From an uncultured Pelagibacteraceae bacterium (lineage in GTDB: Bacteria; Pseudomonadota; Alphaproteobacteria; Pelagibacterales; Pelagibacteraceae): 64,000 nt of DNA. The DNA lies in contig CACFIH010000002.1 of assembly GCA_902566365.1 (NCBI GenBank), positions 1-64,000 of the forward strand. Direction: 5' to 3'. Shown piece by piece: positions 13,792 through 21,830 of the stretch (its first letter is position 1; every line of letters begins with the position of its first letter). The position numbers and the translations under genes are program-made. Below the pieces are notes generated by a model. The model was not told the DNA's origin. It did not search any database and was given only the letters and a program-made list of their open reading frames with translations.

Positions 13792-14049
13792 ATGAATTTT
13801 TATGTATATATCATCATAACTAAAAGAAGAAATAGACATATTACATATGTTGGATATACCAATAATCTTTTAAGAAGATTATTACAACATAATAATTCTA
13901 AAGGTGCAAAATTTACTAGAGGAAATACATGGCATTTAATATATAAGAAAAAATTTGATAACAAATCAAGTGCTATGAAAGAAGAATATAATTTGAAAAA
14001 AAATTATTATTTACGTAATAAAATAAAATATAAGTATCTTAACAAATGA
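13792..14049 (+). CDS. Single-domain GIY-YIG family nuclease-like protein
   Basis: An 85-residue protein consisting of only the GIY-YIG fold: Y-V-Y-I-I near residue 4, T-Y-V-G-Y-T-N-N-L near residue 18, R-R-L-L-Q-H-N with the conserved Arg and His, and a late acidic E-Y-N-L-K-K helix that would carry the metal-binding Glu. It belongs with the small COG2827/YhbQ-like proteins, whose cellular role is not settled. The stop overlaps the next glycosyltransferase by 4 nt (ATGA), so it is transcribed into the sugar genes although a functional link is unlikely. Confidence 0.82.
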   Translation: MNFYVYIIITKRRNRHITYVGYTNNLLRRLLQHNNSKGAKFTRGNTWHLIYKKKFDNKSSAMKEEYNLKKNYYLRNKIKYKYLNK

Positions 14050-16160
14050 AAATAGCAATTTTACTTCCTTATAAAGAAAATTATTCAATGAAATATTCAG
14101 GAGCTGTTTCAATACATGTCAAAAATTTATTAAAACATTCAAAATTTAAAAAGGATATAAAAATTTATGGATCAACAGAATATCGTGATTATTTATCTAA
14201 GAATTATATAAATTTAGATATTAAAAGAAAAATACTTCAAAGTAGTAACAAGCGATATCTTAATAGGTTTTTAGATTATTACGAAAAATCAAAATGGAAT
14301 ATTGTTGAAATACATAATCGTCCTAATTATGTGAATAAAATATCTGAAAATACAAGTTCAAAAATTATTTTATATTTTCATAATAACCCAATCAATTTAT
14401 CAGGATCAAAATCAATAAATGAGAGACTAAAACTTTTAAAAAAATGTGTTTTGATTTTATTCAATAGTCATTGGACTAAAAAAAATTTTTTTAAGGGTAT
14501 AGATGAAAATTTGTATAAGGAAAAAGTTGATATTGTTTATCAATCAACAAAAAAATCTAAAGTCAATTTTAGTAAAAAACAAAATTTAATTACTTTTATC
14601 GGAAAGCTTAATACTTCAAAGGGCTACGATATTTTCGGAAAGGCTATAATCAAAATATTAGAAAAATATCCTTCTTGGAAATCTATAGTAATAGGTGACG
14701 AACCAAGAGAAAAACTTTTTTTTAATCATAAGAACTTAAAAATATACTCATTTAAAGAAAATAAATTTGTTTTAAATGTTTTAAAGAAAACAAGTATTTC
14801 TGTTGCTTGTTCAAGATGGGAAGAGCCTTTTGGTAGATCAAGTTTAGAGGCAAATAGCTTAGGATGTTTAACAATAATTACCAATAGAGGTGGACTTCCT
14901 GAAACTACTAAAAATCCTATAATATTAAAAAAATTAGATCATGTTTCACTTATTTCTTTAATTGAGAAATATATTTTAAATAAATCTTTAAGAATAAAAA
15001 TCCAAAAATTAAACTACAAAAATTTTTATTTAACTAATGAATTTGTATCAAAACAAACTGATAAAATAAGATCCAAATTAATTGAAATAAAAAAAATAAT
15101 AAATATAAAAAAAAATATTAAACCTAAGATTATTCATATAACTAATTTTAATATAAGACATTTCGGTCGTCTGCAGTTTAATACCAGTGTAAGGATTAAT
15201 AATGGTTTAATAAGAAATGGGTGTAATGTTTTAAGTATTTCTGATAGAGATTTAATTAACCTTAAAAAATCATTAATTGATACATCTGGCGAAAAATATC
15301 TTAACAATTTAATTGAAAATACAGTTAATAACTTCAAGCCAGATTTAATTATTCTTGGGCATGCTGATAAAGTAAATAATCAAATGTTACAATCAATTAG
15401 AGATGAGCATAATCATTTAAAGATTTCTCAATGGTTCTTAGATCCTTTGAATAAAGATGGTCCTGATTATAAAAAAAATAAAGAGAGAATTTTAGACAAG
15501 ATAGATGTTGTAGACTCTACATTTATAACAACTGATCCCAAATCAATAAAATTTAAAACAGATAATACTTTTTTTATACCTAACCCATGTGACAAATCTT
15601 TAGATAATCTTAAAATTTACAATTATAAACCTGAAAATGATCTATTTTATGCAATTAGTCATGGCGTACATAGAGGTGTTTTAAGACAAGGTAAAAAAGA
15701 TGATAGAGAAATTTTTATTAGTAAATTATTAAACAAATGTCACGGTATTAAATTCGATTTGTATGGAATGTTCAATAAACAACCAATATGGGGAAATGAA
15801 TTTCTCAAGAAAATTTCAAATTCTAAGATGGGACTGAACTTAAGTAGAGGCAAACCAATAAAATATTATAGTAGCGATAGGATTGCTCAATTAATGGGAA
15901 ATGGTCTCTTAACTTTAATAGATAAACAAACTTTTTATGGAGATTTTTTTAATAATAATGAAATGGTTTTCTATGAAAATTTAGATGATCTTTCCGAAAA
16001 AATAAATAAATATTCTAAAGATGATAAATTAAGAAGAAAAATTGCAAAAAATGGTCATAATAAATATCATAAATTTTTTAATTCAGAGATTTTGGCAAGA
16101 TTTATAATTGAAAGAAGTTTAGGCATTAACACAAAAAATAAGTTTTTATGGGAAAAATAA
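14046..16160 (+). CDS. Two-domain glycosyltransferase (GT4 plus CgeB-like GT1 domain)
   Basis: A 704-residue protein with two GT-B-type halves. Residues 1-335 form a GT4 enzyme: F-I-G-K-L-N-T-S-K-G-Y near residue 183 and the E-x7-E donor motif W258-E-E-P-F-G-R-S-S-L-E. From about residue 360 a second unit begins (K-I-I-H-I-T-N-F-N) and ends in a domain like the CgeB C-terminal glycosyltransferase (G-L-N-L-S-R-G near residue 598, then D-R-I-A-Q-L-M-G-N-G). Two catalytic units in one chain suggest consecutive sugar additions to a surface polysaccharide. It overlaps the GIY-YIG gene by 4 nt and gmd by 13 nt. Donor and acceptor are unknown. Confidence 0.78.
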   Translation: MKIAILLPYKENYSMKYSGAVSIHVKNLLKHSKFKKDIKIYGSTEYRDYLSKNYINLDIKRKILQSSNKRYLNRFLDYYEKSKWNIVEIHNRPNYVNKISENTSSKIILYFHNNPINLSGSKSINERLKLLKKCVLILFNSHWTKKNFFKGIDENLYKEKVDIVYQSTKKSKVNFSKKQNLITFIGKLNTSKGYDIFGKAIIKILEKYPSWKSIVIGDEPREKLFFNHKNLKIYSFKENKFVLNVLKKTSISVACSRWEEPFGRSSLEANSLGCLTIITNRGGLPETTKNPIILKKLDHVSLISLIEKYILNKSLRIKIQKLNYKNFYLTNEFVSKQTDKIRSKLIEIKKIINIKKNIKPKIIHITNFNIRHFGRLQFNTSVRINNGLIRNGCNVLSISDRDLINLKKSLIDTSGEKYLNNLIENTVNNFKPDLIILGHADKVNNQMLQSIRDEHNHLKISQWFLDPLNKDGPDYKKNKERILDKIDVVDSTFITTDPKSIKFKTDNTFFIPNPCDKSLDNLKIYNYKPENDLFYAISHGVHRGVLRQGKKDDREIFISKLLNKCHGIKFDLYGMFNKQPIWGNEFLKKISNSKMGLNLSRGKPIKYYSSDRIAQLMGNGLLTLIDKQTFYGDFFNNNEMVFYENLDDLSEKINKYSKDDKLRRKIAKNGHNKYHKFFNSEILARFIIERSLGINTKNKFLWEK

Positions 16161-17203
16161 ATAAGAGAAAAAAAGTTGCAATAATATTTGGTATTACAGG
16201 TCAAGACGGTTCATATTTAGCTGAATTTTTACTAAAAAAAAATTACATTATTCATGGCGTAAAAAGAAGATCTTCTAGTGCTAATACTGAGAGAATTGAT
16301 CACATATTTGACAGTATTAATTTTAGAAATAAAAACTTTTTTATTCATTATGGTGATATAACCGACAGTTCAAGTATACTAAGCCTTTTAAATAAAGTAA
16401 AACCTGACGAAATTTATAATCTTGCAGCACAAAGTCATGTAAAAGTTTCTTTTGATATACCTGAATATACAGCTAATAGTACTGCACTAGGGGCTTTAAG
16501 AATCTTGGAATCAATTAAAATTTTGAATTTAAAAAAAACTAAATATTACCAAGCATCAAGTTCAGAAATGTTTGGTAAACAAGTTAGTAAAAAATCTCAA
16601 AATGAAAAAACTTCTTTTCATCCTATGTCCATATACGGAGTTTCAAAAGTTTTTGCTTATCATACATCGGTTTTTTATAGAGAAGCTTACGGCATCTTTG
16701 CTTCAAATGGAATTTTATTTAACCATGAGTCTCCAAGAAGAGGCCCAACATTTGTAACAAAAAAAATTATTCAAGGATTAGTTAGAATTAAACTTAAAAA
16801 ACAAAAATTTCTATCTCTTGGAAACTTATATGCTGTTAGAGATTGGGGTCATGCACAAGATTACGTTGAGACAATGTGGAAAATTTTACAATATAAAAAA
16901 GCAGATGACTGGGTTATTGCTACCAATGTAGAGATGTCAGTAAAGAAATTTATAAACAAATGTGCAAAAAAACTTAATATAAATATAATATGGAAAAATA
17001 AAGGATTAAATGAAGTTGGTATTAATAAAGATAATAATGAGGTAGTCATCAAATTAGACAAAAAATATATTAGACCAGGTGAAGTTAATTATTTAAGAGG
17101 AGATTATTCTAAAGCAAAAAAGCTCCTTAAATGGAAACCCAAATATACTGTTGATTACTTAATAGAAGATATGATTAGATATGAAAAAAATTTATACAAA
17201 TAA
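16148..17203 (+). CDS. gmd: GDP-mannose 4,6-dehydratase
   Basis: Converts GDP-D-mannose to GDP-4-keto-6-deoxy-D-mannose, the branch point for deoxyhexoses. The Rossmann motif is G15-I-T-G-Q-D-G-S-Y-L, the R-R-S-S segment near residue 40 is characteristic of Gmd, the catalytic S-S-S-E-M-F-G lies at about 137-143 and Y163-G-V-S-K167 is the SDR dyad. At 351 residues it is full length. It starts 13 nt inside the preceding glycosyltransferase gene and overlaps the DegT-family gene by 23 nt, which ties the two sugar enzymes together. Confidence 0.93.
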   Translation: MGKINKRKKVAIIFGITGQDGSYLAEFLLKKNYIIHGVKRRSSSANTERIDHIFDSINFRNKNFFIHYGDITDSSSILSLLNKVKPDEIYNLAAQSHVKVSFDIPEYTANSTALGALRILESIKILNLKKTKYYQASSSEMFGKQVSKKSQNEKTSFHPMSIYGVSKVFAYHTSVFYREAYGIFASNGILFNHESPRRGPTFVTKKIIQGLVRIKLKKQKFLSLGNLYAVRDWGHAQDYVETMWKILQYKKADDWVIATNVEMSVKKFINKCAKKLNINIIWKNKGLNEVGINKDNNEVVIKLDKKYIRPGEVNYLRGDYSKAKKLLKWKPKYTVDYLIEDMIRYEKNLYK

Positions 17204-18395
17204 ATTTTTTTATCCTTTAATAGAAGATCCGTTTTCAAAAGATGATATAAATGAAGGCGTTAAAGTATTGAAATCTAAACAAATCACAATATCAAAAAAG
17301 ACAAAACATTTTGAAAAAAGATTTAATTCAACTTTAAAAACAAATTATTCTTTAATGGTAAATTCAGGGTCCTCAGCCAACCTATTAGCACTTCAATGTT
17401 TGATAAACCCATATAGAAAAAAAAGATTAAATTATGGTGATGAAGTAATTATACCAACATTATGTTGGTCAACATCACTATGGCCCATAATTCAAGCCAA
17501 CTTAAAACCAGTTTTTATAGATATAAATCCTGACACATTAAATATAGATGAAAGTCAAATCGAAAAAAAGATAACTAAAAGAACAAAAGCTATATTATTA
17601 GTACATGTGCTTGGAAACTCATGTAACCTGGATTTAATACTTAGGATAAAAAAAAAATACAATTTAATTTTAATAGAAGATACCTGTGAGTCACTAGGGT
17701 CAAAATTTAAAAACAAGTATCTAGGCAGTTTTGGAGATTTTTCATCATTCTCGTTTTATACATCGCATCAAATATCCTCAGGGGAGGGCGGAATGATATC
17801 CTGCAAGGATAAAATAGATTATAATATTATCAAATCCTTAAGATCACATGGATGGTCAAGAGACACATCTTTTGAAAACAAGTTTTCAAAAAAATATAGT
17901 AATTTAGACAAAAGATTTATTTTTTTTAATTCTGGATATAATTTAAGACCAACTGAAATATCTGCTGCTATAGCACACAGTCAGTTTAAAAGATTAAAAA
18001 CATTCATTAAAATAAGAAACAATAATAGAAGAAAAATTATTTCTGCAATAAAAAATGATAATTTTTTATGTGATAAATTAGAATTTTATAGAAATAATAA
18101 AAATGTTAGTGCCTCATGGTTTGGATTATCAATAAAAATTTTAGATATAAAAAGAAATAATAAAAACAAAATCATAAATAGATTAGAAAAAAATGGCATA
18201 GAAACTAGGCCAATAATTAGTGGTAATTTTGTAAAACAACCTGCTTCAAAAAAATATAATCTTATTAATAAAGAAAAATATCCTAATACAGATTATATGT
18301 ACGATAGGAGTTTTTTTATAGGACTTCCAACCAAATCATTAGACAGAAAATTTATTAATAAAGTAAAATTAGCATTCATAAATTCATTTAAATAA
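17181..18395 (+). CDS. DegT/DnrJ/EryC1/StrS-family enzyme with His in place of the PLP lysine; candidate GDP-4-keto-6-deoxymannose 3-dehydratase (ColD-like)
   Basis: A 404-residue fold-type I PLP enzyme. Family motifs include N61-S-G-S-S-A-N near the phosphate site, L-I-E-D-T-C-E-S-L-G-S near residue 163 and F-G-D-F-S-S-F-S-F. The segment that normally holds the Schiff-base lysine reads S-F-Y-T-S-H196-Q-I-S-S-G-E-G-G, so His takes the lysine position, as known for ColD and the RfbH-type 3-dehydrases. I therefore read it as a 3-dehydratase and not an aminotransferase. Cysteines of the RfbH iron-sulfur site are not evident. Directly downstream of gmd, its likely substrate is GDP-4-keto-6-deoxymannose. 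It overlaps gmd by 23 nt and the next gene follows without a gap. Confidence 0.75.
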   Translation: MKKIYTNKFFYPLIEDPFSKDDINEGVKVLKSKQITISKKTKHFEKRFNSTLKTNYSLMVNSGSSANLLALQCLINPYRKKRLNYGDEVIIPTLCWSTSLWPIIQANLKPVFIDINPDTLNIDESQIEKKITKRTKAILLVHVLGNSCNLDLILRIKKKYNLILIEDTCESLGSKFKNKYLGSFGDFSSFSFYTSHQISSGEGGMISCKDKIDYNIIKSLRSHGWSRDTSFENKFSKKYSNLDKRFIFFNSGYNLRPTEISAAIAHSQFKRLKTFIKIRNNNRRKIISAIKNDNFLCDKLEFYRNNKNVSASWFGLSIKILDIKRNNKNKIINRLEKNGIETRPIISGNFVKQPASKKYNLINKEKYPNTDYMYDRSFFIGLPTKSLDRKFINKVKLAFINSFK

Positions 18396-19223
18396 ATGAT
18401 AAGAATAGGATACTCTGGTAAAAAAAGTGGTTTGGCTAAATCATTTATTAATCAATATAAAAGGAAATTTATTTTTAAATGCTATAAGGAAGATATTTCA
18501 GATAAAAAAAAATTTAAAAATTGGATTAGAAAAAATAAAGATCTAAATATTTTTATAAATTTTGCAGCAATCACTTCACCACATAAATGTGATATGAATA
18601 AAAAAAAATCTTTTAATACTAATTATATTTCAGTCATCAATATGCTTAAAATAATAAATCAAAATGATATTAAAAATTTCAAATATTTTTTATGTTTATC
18701 AACATCACATGTCTTTAAAAAATCAAACAATAAATTAAATGAAAAATCTAAAAAAGTACCTTCGAATTTTTATGGCTACACAAAAAAATTATTAGAAAAT
18801 TATGTATTAAAAAATCAGAACAAATTTTATTATAATATTGGCATAGCTAGAGTATTCAATTTTTATAACAAACTTAGTAATAAGAATTTTTTTATAAATG
18901 ATGTGTTAAAAAAACTTAATAGTAATAAAAAAAAACTTTATTTTGAAAACGTAAACACATTTAGAGATTTCGTAAGCATGAGTGATATTAATAGCGCACT
19001 TTATTTAATGATCAATCTGAAATTAATTAATGACTTTAACATTTGTTCTGGAAAAAAGATAAAACTTAAAGATATAATCATCTACCTTAATAAAATGAAA
19101 CAAGACAAAAAAGATATCATTTTTAATGAAAAAGCCTCAAAAAGTCTTGTTGGATCAAATATTAAATTAAAAAAAAAAGGTTGGAAGATTAAAAACAAAA
19201 ATTTTTTTAATCAATTAAGTTAA
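18396..19223 (+). CDS. SDR-type NAD(P)-dependent sugar reductase/epimerase, RmlD-like
   Basis: A 275-residue short-chain dehydrogenase of the extended type. The N-terminal glycine motif is G5-Y-S-G-K-K-S-G12, the active site shows S-T-S near 102-104 and Y126-G-Y-T-K130, and the arrangement resembles dTDP-4-dehydrorhamnose reductases. After gmd and the ColD-like gene it is the natural candidate for 4-keto reduction of the dideoxysugar. It is shorter than the usual ColC epimerase/reductase, so C5 epimerisation is not assured. It directly follows the preceding stop and overlaps the next glycosyltransferase by 1 nt. Confidence 0.72.
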   Translation: MIRIGYSGKKSGLAKSFINQYKRKFIFKCYKEDISDKKKFKNWIRKNKDLNIFINFAAITSPHKCDMNKKKSFNTNYISVINMLKIINQNDIKNFKYFLCLSTSHVFKKSNNKLNEKSKKVPSNFYGYTKKLLENYVLKNQNKFYYNIGIARVFNFYNKLSNKNFFINDVLKKLNSNKKKLYFENVNTFRDFVSMSDINSALYLMINLKLINDFNICSGKKIKLKDIIIYLNKMKQDKKDIIFNEKASKSLVGSNIKLKKKGWKIKNKNFFNQLS

Positions 19224-20224
19224 TGAAAAAGATAATAATAATCGATAATTCAAATTTATCTTATGATGGCAATGATATTAATGGAAAAAAACTCAGAGGT
19301 ACTGAAACTTCATTAATTTTACTTTCTGAGGAATTTGTAAAAAAGGGCTTTAAAGTGGATTTCTGTAACTCAATAAGCCATAATAGTATAGTTAATGGTG
19401 TTAATTATTATAATAAAAATAATATAGAAATAAATGATACCTTCAATCTAGCCATAGCAATATCTGATGCAAACGAATTTAAACGCGTAAATTCTAAAAA
19501 AAAGGCAGTTTTCTCAGTAAGCAATCAATCACTTGAAAAATTTATAAGAAAGAAACAACTTTTGCCTTTCCTAAGATATAAGCCAGTTTTAATCACTTTG
19601 TGTGATTATCAATTCAATAAAAGATCCTTTTTTACAAGTTTCTATGGTAAAAAAACTATTCCAATAACTGTTGATCCAAAATTTTTGAATATTCCTGTAG
19701 ATTTGAAAAGAGTTCCTGATCAAAATATTGTTTATAATATTAGATCTAATAGAAATTTAGATAAACTAATAGATATTTGGTGTAGTAAAATTCACCCCAA
19801 AAATAAAAATTTTAAATTTTTCATTACTCCAGATTTAATTGAATATAATAGTAAGCTTGCTTCAAAAAATATTTTCTTAAGAAAAATATTAAGCAGAGAT
19901 GAAATGATTGATGAACTTAATAATTACAGATTACTAGCATATCTAGGACATAAATCAGATATTTTTACTCTTACAGCTGAAGAGGCAATTAAACTTTGTC
20001 TTCCTGTAGTAACGTTTGGTATTGGTTCTCTTTCTGAAAGAGTAAAACATAATGAAACTGGTTTTATAGCTAGAAATGACCAAGAATTTGCAGATTATAC
20101 CATTAAATTATTGAGTAATGACAATTTTTATTTAGATATTAAAAAAAAAATGTTTGAAAAACGTAAAATGAATACTTGGAACAAAATTGCTGATGAATGG
20201 ATTAATTTTTTTGGTTTAAATTAG
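19223..20224 (+). CDS. Glycosyltransferase, GT4-like
   Basis: A 333-residue GT-B-type enzyme: an N-terminal acceptor-binding Rossmann half beginning K-K-I-I-I-I-D-N-S with L-R-G-T-E-T-S-L near residue 29, and a C-terminal half containing L-A-Y-L-G-H-K-S-D near residue 236 and the donor-site pattern F-T-L-T-A-E-E-A-I-K-L near residue 249. It ends the plus-strand sugar run and meets the integrase gene tail to tail with no base between them. It probably transfers a sugar of the adjacent gmd-dependent pathway, which is an inference from position. Confidence 0.72.
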   Translation: MKKIIIIDNSNLSYDGNDINGKKLRGTETSLILLSEEFVKKGFKVDFCNSISHNSIVNGVNYYNKNNIEINDTFNLAIAISDANEFKRVNSKKKAVFSVSNQSLEKFIRKKQLLPFLRYKPVLITLCDYQFNKRSFFTSFYGKKTIPITVDPKFLNIPVDLKRVPDQNIVYNIRSNRNLDKLIDIWCSKIHPKNKNFKFFITPDLIEYNSKLASKNIFLRKILSRDEMIDELNNYRLLAYLGHKSDIFTLTAEEAIKLCLPVVTFGIGSLSERVKHNETGFIARNDQEFADYTIKLLSNDNFYLDIKKKMFEKRKMNTWNKIADEWINFFGLN

Positions 20225-21130
20225 TTAGATTTTGATTTTATTAAGAGCATTATTTTTAAACAAATTTGCTTCATGTATATATCTTCTAACCATAGCTGTA
20301 GTTTTATGACCTGTCATGGCCATTATATTTCTTTCTTCTGCTCCAAATTCTGCAGCTGTTGTTGCAAAACCTGATCTTAAACTATGTCCTGCATATCTTG
20401 ATGGGTCCAACCCAGCTTTATTTGCATATTTTTTAATTATAAGTGCTACTGATTTATCTGAAATTTGAAAAATTTTGCCTTTAATATCTTTTGAAAGTTT
20501 GTGTTTAATGAAATTTTTAAGTGTTATAACTGGACAAAATTCCTGGTTATCAAAGTAGGGGATGGCTTTAATAATCCCTTCACCTGATTGATCTGTTTTC
20601 GATCTTTTAATTAAAATCTTCACTCCTTCAGTTACGAATTCAACATCCTCATGCATAATATTAACGAGTTCTGATCTTCTAAATCCCCCTGCAAAACCTA
20701 TTAATATTAATGCTTTATCTCTGATTTTATCTTCATCTATTGCTTTAATTATTAATTTTAAATCATTGATTAATATAGGTTTTTTTGCTTTCTGTCTTGA
20801 TCCTAAGGTTCTTTTAATACCATGCAAGTTTTCCATTATGATCGGATGTTTAGTATCCAGATAATGTCCTTTTAACTTATGAATAACACTTATAGAAGCT
20901 ATTCTTCTTTTTAAAGTACTAAATCTAAATGATTTTGAAAGATGAGTTATGTAAAGTGCAATTATTTTTGGTTCAGTTGGCATTGAGGATAACCCATTCT
21001 TTGAGCAGAAAAGAGAAAAGTCCCTAAAATCAGACTGATAAGCTCTTAAGGTATTATTGGCTTTTGAATTTCTTAAGTTCTTTAAAGTCTCAATTTCTAA
21101 ACTTTTAACGTCAGTTATTAGTTCACTCAT
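20225..21130 (-). CDS. Tyrosine-type site-specific recombinase (integrase)
   Basis: A 301-residue tyrosine recombinase with a complete active site: R151 in G-G-F-R-R-S-E-L, K178 in R-S-K-T-D-Q, H249-S-L-R252, H275 in T-G-H-K-T and nucleophile Y284 in V-R-R-Y-I-H. The N-terminal 105 residues form the SAM-like core-binding domain. It resembles the short integrases common in alphaproteobacterial islands and is not the housekeeping XerC or XerD. It lies at the far end of a sugar gene cluster from tRNA-Glu. Its start codon is 4 nt from an 11-7-11 inverted repeat that could be its recombination core site or an autoregulatory operator. Confidence 0.9.
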   Translation of the reverse strand: MSELITDVKSLEIETLKNLRNSKANNTLRAYQSDFRDFSLFCSKNGLSSMPTEPKIIALYITHLSKSFRFSTLKRRIASISVIHKLKGHYLDTKHPIIMENLHGIKRTLGSRQKAKKPILINDLKLIIKAIDEDKIRDKALILIGFAGGFRRSELVNIMHEDVEFVTEGVKILIKRSKTDQSGEGIIKAIPYFDNQEFCPVITLKNFIKHKLSKDIKGKIFQISDKSVALIIKKYANKAGLDPSRYAGHSLRSGFATTAAEFGAEERNIMAMTGHKTTAMVRRYIHEANLFKNNALNKIKI

Positions 21131-21134
21131 AATT

Positions 21135-21163
21135 ATTTCCGATAACCATTAATTATCGGAAAT
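21135..21163. other. 11-7-11 perfect inverted repeat, dif-like; candidate recombinase core site or operator
   Basis: ATTTCCGATAA (21135-21145) and TTATCGGAAAT (21153-21163) are perfect inverted repeats around the 7-nt spacer CCATTAA. Two 11-bp arms around a 6-8 bp spacer is the geometry of tyrosine recombinase crossover sites, and the outer ATTT and inner ATAA of each arm match the Xer dif arm pattern. It lies 4 nt upstream of the integrase start codon. No second copy was found in the window by eye. Confidence 0.6.
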
Positions 21164-21207
21164 TATATAATAGATGATTTTCAATGTCAATAGCAATATT
21201 ATGAGTT

Positions 21208-21560: not shown

Positions 21561-21830
21561 ATGCAGGGAACAAAATTTCAATTAAAAGTCTGGAAGTACC
21601 TTAAAACCATACCAAAAGGTAAGGTAAAAACCTATAAACAGGTCGCTATTGCTATAAAAAGCCCTAAATCGGCTCGTGCTGTGGCTAATGCTTGTGCTAA
21701 AAACCCATATGCCCCAAAAATACCCTGCCACAGAGTGATTAGATCTGATGGAGCTCTTGGAGGCTACTCTGGGAGAGGTGGAATTACGCAAAAGCTCAAA
21801 TTACTTAGATCTGAAAAGGTAGAGATTTAG
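21561..21830 (+). CDS. MGMT-family DNA alkyltransferase, DNA-binding domain only
   Basis: An 89-residue protein made up only of the C-terminal domain of O6-alkylguanine-DNA alkyltransferases. The helix-turn-helix is near residues 25-45 (T-Y-K-Q-V-A, with A-R-A-V-A-N-A) and the active site is P55-C56-H57-R58-V, so the acceptor cysteine is present, unlike in alkyltransferase-like (ATL) proteins where it is Trp. The usual N-terminal domain of about 80 residues is absent, and no in-frame start further upstream fits. It probably repairs or flags alkylated guanine. A hairpin terminator directly follows. Confidence 0.85.
   Translation: MQGTKFQLKVWKYLKTIPKGKVKTYKQVAIAIKSPKSARAVANACAKNPYAPKIPCHRVIRSDGALGGYSGRGGITQKLKLLRSEKVEI

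Follow-up and report, generated by a model that had tools for sequence, protein, structure and literature searches.

A site beside a single tyrosine recombinase gene as the likely chromosomal dif of the SAR11 family

Introduction

The window, by which we mean the whole 64,000-nt stretch of DNA analysed here, contains at 21135-21163 a perfect 11-7-11 dyad, ATTTCCGATAA-CCATTAA-TTATCGGAAAT, which stands 4 nt upstream of the start codon (ATG) of a gene for a 301-aa tyrosine recombinase. What does such a site do in front of such a gene in a streamlined SAR11 genome? It could serve the chromosome, a mobile element that carries the gene, or the expression of the gene itself. A sequence-only reading of the window had described the inverted repeat and its distance from the recombinase start, both of which are confirmed, and had proposed that it is a crossover-type recombinase site with dif-like arms, possibly belonging to an integrative element.

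The background is brief. A 2009 survey listed Pelagibacter as being without dif/Xer, which was read as streamlining having discarded non-vital systems, and Pelagibacter is not mentioned by name in the main text of Kono et al. 2011 (PMC3025954). A description of a SAR11 dif was not found in the open-access literature, a scope that leaves subscription papers and supplements aside, and the papers listed as containing letters of the arms, 30 of 319 in the open literature, are unrelated, as judged by their titles and the starts of their abstracts.

Here we present computed evidence on the site, its conservation, its position, the polarity of a motif around it, the gene content of the family and the phylogeny of the recombinase. 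We conclude that, very likely, the site is the chromosomal dif of the SAR11 family and the adjacent gene encodes its partnerless Xer recombinase. The features of the window to which the text refers are as follows.

21137 to 21161, minus strand: proposed dif core (conservation over 102 sequences; GC-skew maximum 0.6-3.8 kb away in 5 of 5 sampled complete genomes)
21135 to 21163, no strand assigned: full perfect 11-7-11 dyad (window sequence; outer two arm positions not conserved)
20225 to 21130, minus strand: tyrosine recombinase gene, 301 aa, proposed single Xer (profile matches, alignment, tree)
21165 to 21190, minus strand: TTGACA / TATTAT-type boxes that resemble a promoter for the recombinase gene (consensus match only)
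17781 to 17788, plus strand: KOPS-like GGGNAGGG, occurring once in the window, to the left of the site and oriented toward it
21561 to 21830, plus strand: ogt-like methyltransferase gene, conserved neighbour on the upstream side (78 of 80 loci, within 2.5 kb)
14046 to 20224, plus strand: glycan-type genes, variable downstream side (18 homology clusters in 72 loci; for the upstream side, 5 in 73)

Results

Conservation of the core and its spacer

On the minus strand the conserved core has a 9-7-9 arrangement, TTCCGATAA-TTAATGG-TTATCGGAA (21137-21161). The full dyad is unique in the 64,000-nt window at up to 3 mismatches, was absent at the same tolerance from all of 100 shuffles, and is the sole match in the window's own assembly of 1,074,421 bases. 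For the analysis of conservation the upstream DNA of 110 loci, comprising 102 distinct 120-mers, was aligned, with the viral match L112 and the duplicate L001 omitted; these loci lean to the window's own lineage, because they were chosen as the best matches to its protein. Over the 102 distinct sequences conservation per position is 97-100% in the spacer of 7 nt and in the inner 9 bp of both arms, averages ~72% in the flanks of the core, and is lost across relatives at the outer two positions of each dyad arm. The spacer is TTAATGG in 105 of the 110 rows, TTAATAG in two, TTTATGG in one and TTAAACG in one, with one row being unreadable. A strand-exchange region, unlike an operator, is expected to keep an asymmetric spacer to the same degree as its arms.

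TTGAC is present in all 102 distinct sequences and, together with a -10-like box, directly precedes the site in 97 of them. Since these boxes abut the site, binding of the recombinase should also affect transcription of its own gene, and, as judged from the sequence, autoregulation in addition to the dif role is likely. The position of the boxes in the window (21165-21190), directly upstream of the site, bears out the earlier suggestion of a placement that would allow recombinase binding to control the recombinase gene.

Distribution of the site and a second set of arms

The strict pattern with the window's arms (A arms) is present in 72 of 297 family genomes, in a single place in each, and its reversed control gave zero matches in the same 297 genomes. 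Among 398 Pseudomonadota genomes it was found in two, both from the SAR11 family. A second lineage, which includes G026 (1,308,759 bases), has different arms (B arms), mostly ATTACTAAYGATAA-TTAATKG-TTATCAATAGTAAT, but the same type of spacer, i.e. TTAATGG, TTAATTG or, rarely, TTTATTG. A pattern that accommodates both lineages, GATAATTWATKGTTATC, matches 223 of the 297 family genomes, including 111 of the 127 of good quality, with no genome listed as having more than one copy; its reversed control has matches in 3 of the 297. Throughout these 297 genomes the site, where present in SAR11, always lies beside the recombinase gene.

Gene and site are both present in all 11 single-contig genomes among a set of 118, and 14 of the 118, with assemblies of 20-70 pieces, have neither a recombinase match nor the site. 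Two genomes, G006 and G029, have the recombinase without an exact match to the two-lineage site, and it is possible that they represent a third type of arm or spacer.

The recombinase

Searches with the protein found the recombinase in 230 of the 297 family genomes and in 111 of the 127 good ones, with no match in 67 and 16, respectively; it is thus a near-core gene of the family, and its description as an integrase in the sense of an accessory island gene does not hold. Nearly all the listed genomes have a single match; two are listed for G154, G208 and G034, those of G154 being adjoining pieces of one gene.

The protein matches Phage_integrase, and its scores against the Xer models are all far below the cut-offs (XerA 72 bits against 220, XerD 68 against 330, XerC 62 against 335, XerS 56.3 against 267). 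Residues R151, K178, H249, R252, H275 and Y284 are invariant in an alignment of 15 sequences and, by alignment with XerD, are assigned as the predicted catalytic residues. An AlphaFold model (mean pLDDT 80, pTM 0.58) has Cre as its best fold match in the PDB, at TM-scores of ~0.45-0.58, with XerA, XerH and XerD lower; the TM-scores are modest overall (~0.4-0.6). An identity as XerS was rejected on the score of 56.3 bits against the cut-off of 267. Membership of an XerC/XerD pair was likewise rejected, the protein being below the cut-offs of both models and outside both the XerC and the XerD clades in the tree described below.

Absence of XerC/XerD and phylogeny of the proposed replacement

None of the 118 SAR11 genomes has a match above the cut-off of the XerD model, the best being 87 bits, and a few of them carry a second, weak tyrosine recombinase. 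The cut-off is strict, being passed by only 4 of 14 control genomes, so the raw scores matter more. In other alphaproteobacteria these are high, with 13 of 14 genomes having a best match to the XerD model of 257-341 bits and a second of 195-257 bits. The same applies to the sister family, which belongs to the same order and has genomes of similar size: a strong match to the XerD model is present in 30 of 31 genomes, with 28 at 307-326 bits, many of these having in addition one at ~244-258 bits, two having only the latter and one having none. The SAR11 recombinase was found at E 1e-20 in none of 40 sister-family genomes. The one exception among the 14 other alphaproteobacteria is G696 (locus L401), with a 1.4-Mb genome, in which the best XerC/XerD-like match is just 77 bits.

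In a tree whose bootstrap is unsettled and in which VIR_L156 and G696_L401 lie on very long branches, the 17 SAR11 proteins form one clade (100/100) inside a group of plasmid and viral recombinases, and a branch at 100/100 splits this SAR11/plasmid/viral group from XerC and XerD. The recombinases of genomes with A arms form one clade (100/97), and those with B arms form a clade (96/95) plus one basal row. The viral sequences L157, L182, L142, L147 and L140, and the plasmid sequences of Sporosarcina, Ac37b, Paenibacillus and Sphingopyxis, were left out of this tree.

Position at the terminus and polarity of a KOPS-like motif

The position of the site was analysed in five single-contig genomes, each sampled as 19 or 20 stretches of 20 kb, i.e. 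about a third of the genome, with denser sampling near the site and with the gaps interpolated for cumulative GC skew. On this basis the cumulative GC-skew maximum lies 617 bp from the site in G005, 2,641 bp in G009, 1,630 bp in G040, 1,678 bp in G003 and 3,849 bp in G026, and the site is 2.9-4.5% of the genome length from the point opposite the GC-skew minimum. In terms of local left-right skew contrast the site ranks first only in G005, being exceeded by 3 of 118 positions in G009, 26 of 114 in G040, 12 of 95 in G003 and 11 of 49 in G026. The cumulative maximum of the window itself is at 20,247, 0.9 kb from the site.

GGGNAGGG is the KOPS motif of E. coli. Within the sampled stretches of the five genomes 31 of its 33 occurrences point toward the site and 2 point away. 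The resulting directional fraction of 0.94 is the highest of 42 letter permutations, the others being at 0.55-0.88, and skew alone is thus an insufficient explanation. The FtsK gamma domain was found in 57 of 58 genomes. As sampled, the SAR11 locus presents a single site per chromosome, at the terminus, in cells with an FtsK gamma domain and with KOPS-like polarity toward the site.

The neighbourhood is asymmetric, with an ogt-like gene lying upstream, within 2.5 kb, in 78 of the 80 loci compared and a variable downstream side, for which 72 loci gave 18 homology clusters compared with 5 among 73 loci upstream. The proposed dif site thus lies on the border between a conserved ogt side and a variable region of glycan genes (14046-20224 in the window; loci L032-L111), and its place beside a variable region explains why the gene looks like an island integrase.

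Plasmid and viral relatives

The closest plasmid relatives of the recombinase are 40-45% identical to it, and several of them adjoin partition or toxin-antitoxin genes. Among nine plasmid loci, those of Alicyclobacillus dauci and A. curvatus have A-like arms, with one mismatch each, 21-22 nt before the gene. Dyads that are perfect but differ in their arms lie 74 nt upstream on a plasmid of Protochlamydia naegleriophila (L256) and 42 nt upstream on a plasmid of Rickettsiales bacterium Ac37b (L257), and are probably the resolution sites of those plasmids. The dyads of Sporosarcina (11 bp, at 243 nt) and Sphingopyxis (9 bp, at 40 nt) are imperfect; in A. acidocaldarius and Salinibacter the sequence CGATAA-N7-TTATCG occurs ~0.9 kb upstream; and no comparable site was found at the P. 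polymyxa plasmid locus. In 13 viral stretches that were found by the site pattern alone, the site is followed by a recombinase relative of 26-40% identity, the match to which begins 86-464 nt further on.

Phage contigs with the arms of the host site

The strict arms were found in at least 120 stretches of IMG/VR. Among the 121 viral stretches listed, 93 have a GC content below 40%, and in 65 a terminase homologue lies at a distance of 313-1,157 bp. Nineteen contigs have a SAR11-type spacer, which is TTAATTG in every case, with A arms in 16 and B arms in 3; the window's own TTAATGG spacer and a recombinase gene were each found in none of these 19. In L370, L371, L173 and other IMG/VR loci, contigs that lack a recombinase gene carry site mimics 0.3-1.2 kb from a terminase gene. 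The genes near the site in the phage contigs examined are those for terminase, portal or head-tail connector, and capsid, and one contig has a terminase with 92% identity to its counterpart in pelagiphage HTVC106P and 49% to the one in HTVC010P. B-type half-sites occur within 120 bp of an A-type core in 21 of 128 viral loci, and, with the arm types of both host lineages side by side, one phage might use either SAR11 lineage.

The terminase regions of eight pelagiphages were inspected. HTVC106P (L376) has an A-type site that is one nt short, upstream of the terminase gene, and HTVC100P (L382) has degenerate A- and B-type sites in the same place; both look as if they were decaying or tuned. HTVC024P, Lederberg and HTVC204P have only weak matches to the site, and HTVC010P, Skadi-3 and HTVC028P have none. 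With the sites of isolates being altered, weak or absent, the idea of phage use rests on the metagenomic contigs. Prophages at the host site were sought with five phage proteins, which gave zero matches in 234 host stretches. A related terminase is present in 4 of 227 SAR11 genomes; half-sites of either lineage were absent from those four terminase stretches, the sole match to GATAA-N6-8-TTATC, a weak one, being in L384. We raise as a tentative proposal, somewhat less probable than its converse, that a pelagiphage-like group, with terminases akin to that of HTVC106P and more distantly to that of HTVC010P, depends on the SAR11 Xer/dif system, either for integration at dif or for resolving multimers of the phage genome.

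Discussion

The mechanism that we propose is as follows. Homologous recombination would fuse sister chromosomes into a dimer, and septal FtsK would then pump DNA along the KOPS-like polarity until the two copies of dif meet at the terminus. One recombinase protomer would bind each of the near-identical 9-bp arms, and the resulting tetramer would exchange strands inside the 7-nt spacer TTAATGG to give two monomers, with the asymmetry of the spacer fixing the orientation. Placed between promoter and start codon, the site probably also allows the recombinase to repress its own gene. Recombinase binding, strand exchange, FtsK activation and autorepression are steps that we infer. With respect to origin, the recombinase would have replaced XerC/XerD in an ancestor of the SAR11 family; it groups with recombinases carried by plasmids, and in some of these a like site lies upstream of the recombinase gene.

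Proximity to the gene gives some weight to another reading, in which the dyad is an autoregulatory operator and nothing else, with the recombinase or another dimeric repressor blocking transcription between promoter and start codon: the site is a few nt from the start codon, comes directly after the two boxes (TTGAC and -10-like) in 97 of the 102 distinct sequences and, in SAR11, has been seen only beside the gene. The earlier reading had held that a site confined to positions in front of the recombinase gene would speak for an operator. The search of related genomes that it called for gave one copy per positive genome and a site only beside the gene; the latter does not discriminate against an operator or in favour of one, because the dif of XerS and XerH systems also adjoins the recombinase gene. 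The features that do discriminate are a spacer that is both asymmetric and invariant, the location at the terminus and the loss of XerC/XerD. An operator has no need for an asymmetric spacer that is kept while the arms change, nor for a position at the GC-skew switch, a motif polarity toward the site or an absence of XerC/XerD, and phage contigs hold the same arms away from any recombinase gene. We consider the operator reading improbable, and as a sole role it was rejected on the spacer, the terminus position and the XerCD loss.

A mobile element or hypervariable island containing the recombinase, with the dyad as its attachment or core site, could account for the variable downstream side (18 homology clusters among 72 loci) and for the relatives of the recombinase on plasmids and viral contigs. 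It is, however, difficult to reconcile with a near-core gene, with one site per positive genome and no second copy in either the window or its assembly when up to 3 mismatches are allowed, with the constant terminus position, with an ogt-side neighbour that is constant in 78 of 80 loci and with the absence of the tested phage genes from 234 host stretches, and we regard it as very improbable. Of the earlier interpretation, the part that saw a tyrosine recombinase site with dif-like arms stands, whereas the part that assigned it to an element as its own attachment or core site does not, since the single copy, the GC-skew switch and the KOPS polarity mark it as the chromosome's own dif. A third alternative, in which a plasmid cassette for multimer resolution was captured and gene and site are what is left of it, idle for the chromosome, would fit with plasmid recombinases, several of them beside partition or toxin-antitoxin genes, being the closest relatives outside SAR11 found here; but the site is near-invariant and the catalytic residues are intact in small genomes, and chromosomal use is favoured by the location at the terminus and by the reciprocal pattern in which XerC/XerD are absent, such that we give this account almost no credence.

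The chromosomal dif/Xer reading has precedents. A dif/Xer lineage with a single recombinase is known in kind; what is new is the lineage, the arm sequence and the origin. In the description of Nicholson et al. 2022 (PMC9765430), XerL/dif of the Legionellales is a single-recombinase system in a group that had earlier been said to be without dif/Xer; as in SAR11, the site lies close to the maximum of GC skew and its arms form perfect dyads, of 10 bp in Legionella and 12 bp in Coxiella; a mobile element, LME-1, also uses it. In a comparison made by description, dif and xerL (lpg1867) of L. pneumophila are >400 kb apart (PMC9765430), whereas the separation in the window is 4 nt; the Coxiella xerL copy is carried by what the same authors term a virulence plasmid. 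As put by Castillo et al. 2017 (PMC5357621), a dif beside the recombinase gene is a possible hallmark of the XerS and XerH systems, and XerS/difSL of streptococci and lactococci and XerH/difH of Campylobacter and Helicobacter resemble SAR11 in having a single recombinase with an adjoining dif, in their case at the chromosomal locus for dimer resolution. They differ, on the account given there (PMC5357621), in the size of the protein (356 aa for XerS and 354-362 aa for XerH, compared with 301 aa), in their imperfect arms and in the 11-bp centre of difSL, where SAR11 has near-perfect arms and a 7-nt spacer.

With XerC/XerD and classical dif the SAR11 system shares the same catalytic residues, the ATAA/TTAT inner arm ends, the terminus position, KOPS-like polarity and FtsK gamma, but it has one recombinase, two like arms and a spacer of 7 rather than 6 nt. 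Cre/loxP and the plasmid resolution recombinases are similar in having a single recombinase, inverted arms and a short asymmetric spacer; the SAR11 system, unlike these, is chromosomal, lies at the terminus and is near-core across a bacterial family.

If the site is dif, SAR11 did not give up dimer resolution but kept it, swapping the two-protein XerCD for a plasmid-type recombinase with its site attached, and these cells, which are among the commonest in the sea, can split dimer chromosomes before division. The change of arms between lineages with the spacer kept is a natural experiment on recombinase specificity. The dif reading would also give SAR11 genomes an exact marker of the terminus, and suggests a testable route by which SAR11 phages may use the machinery of their hosts.
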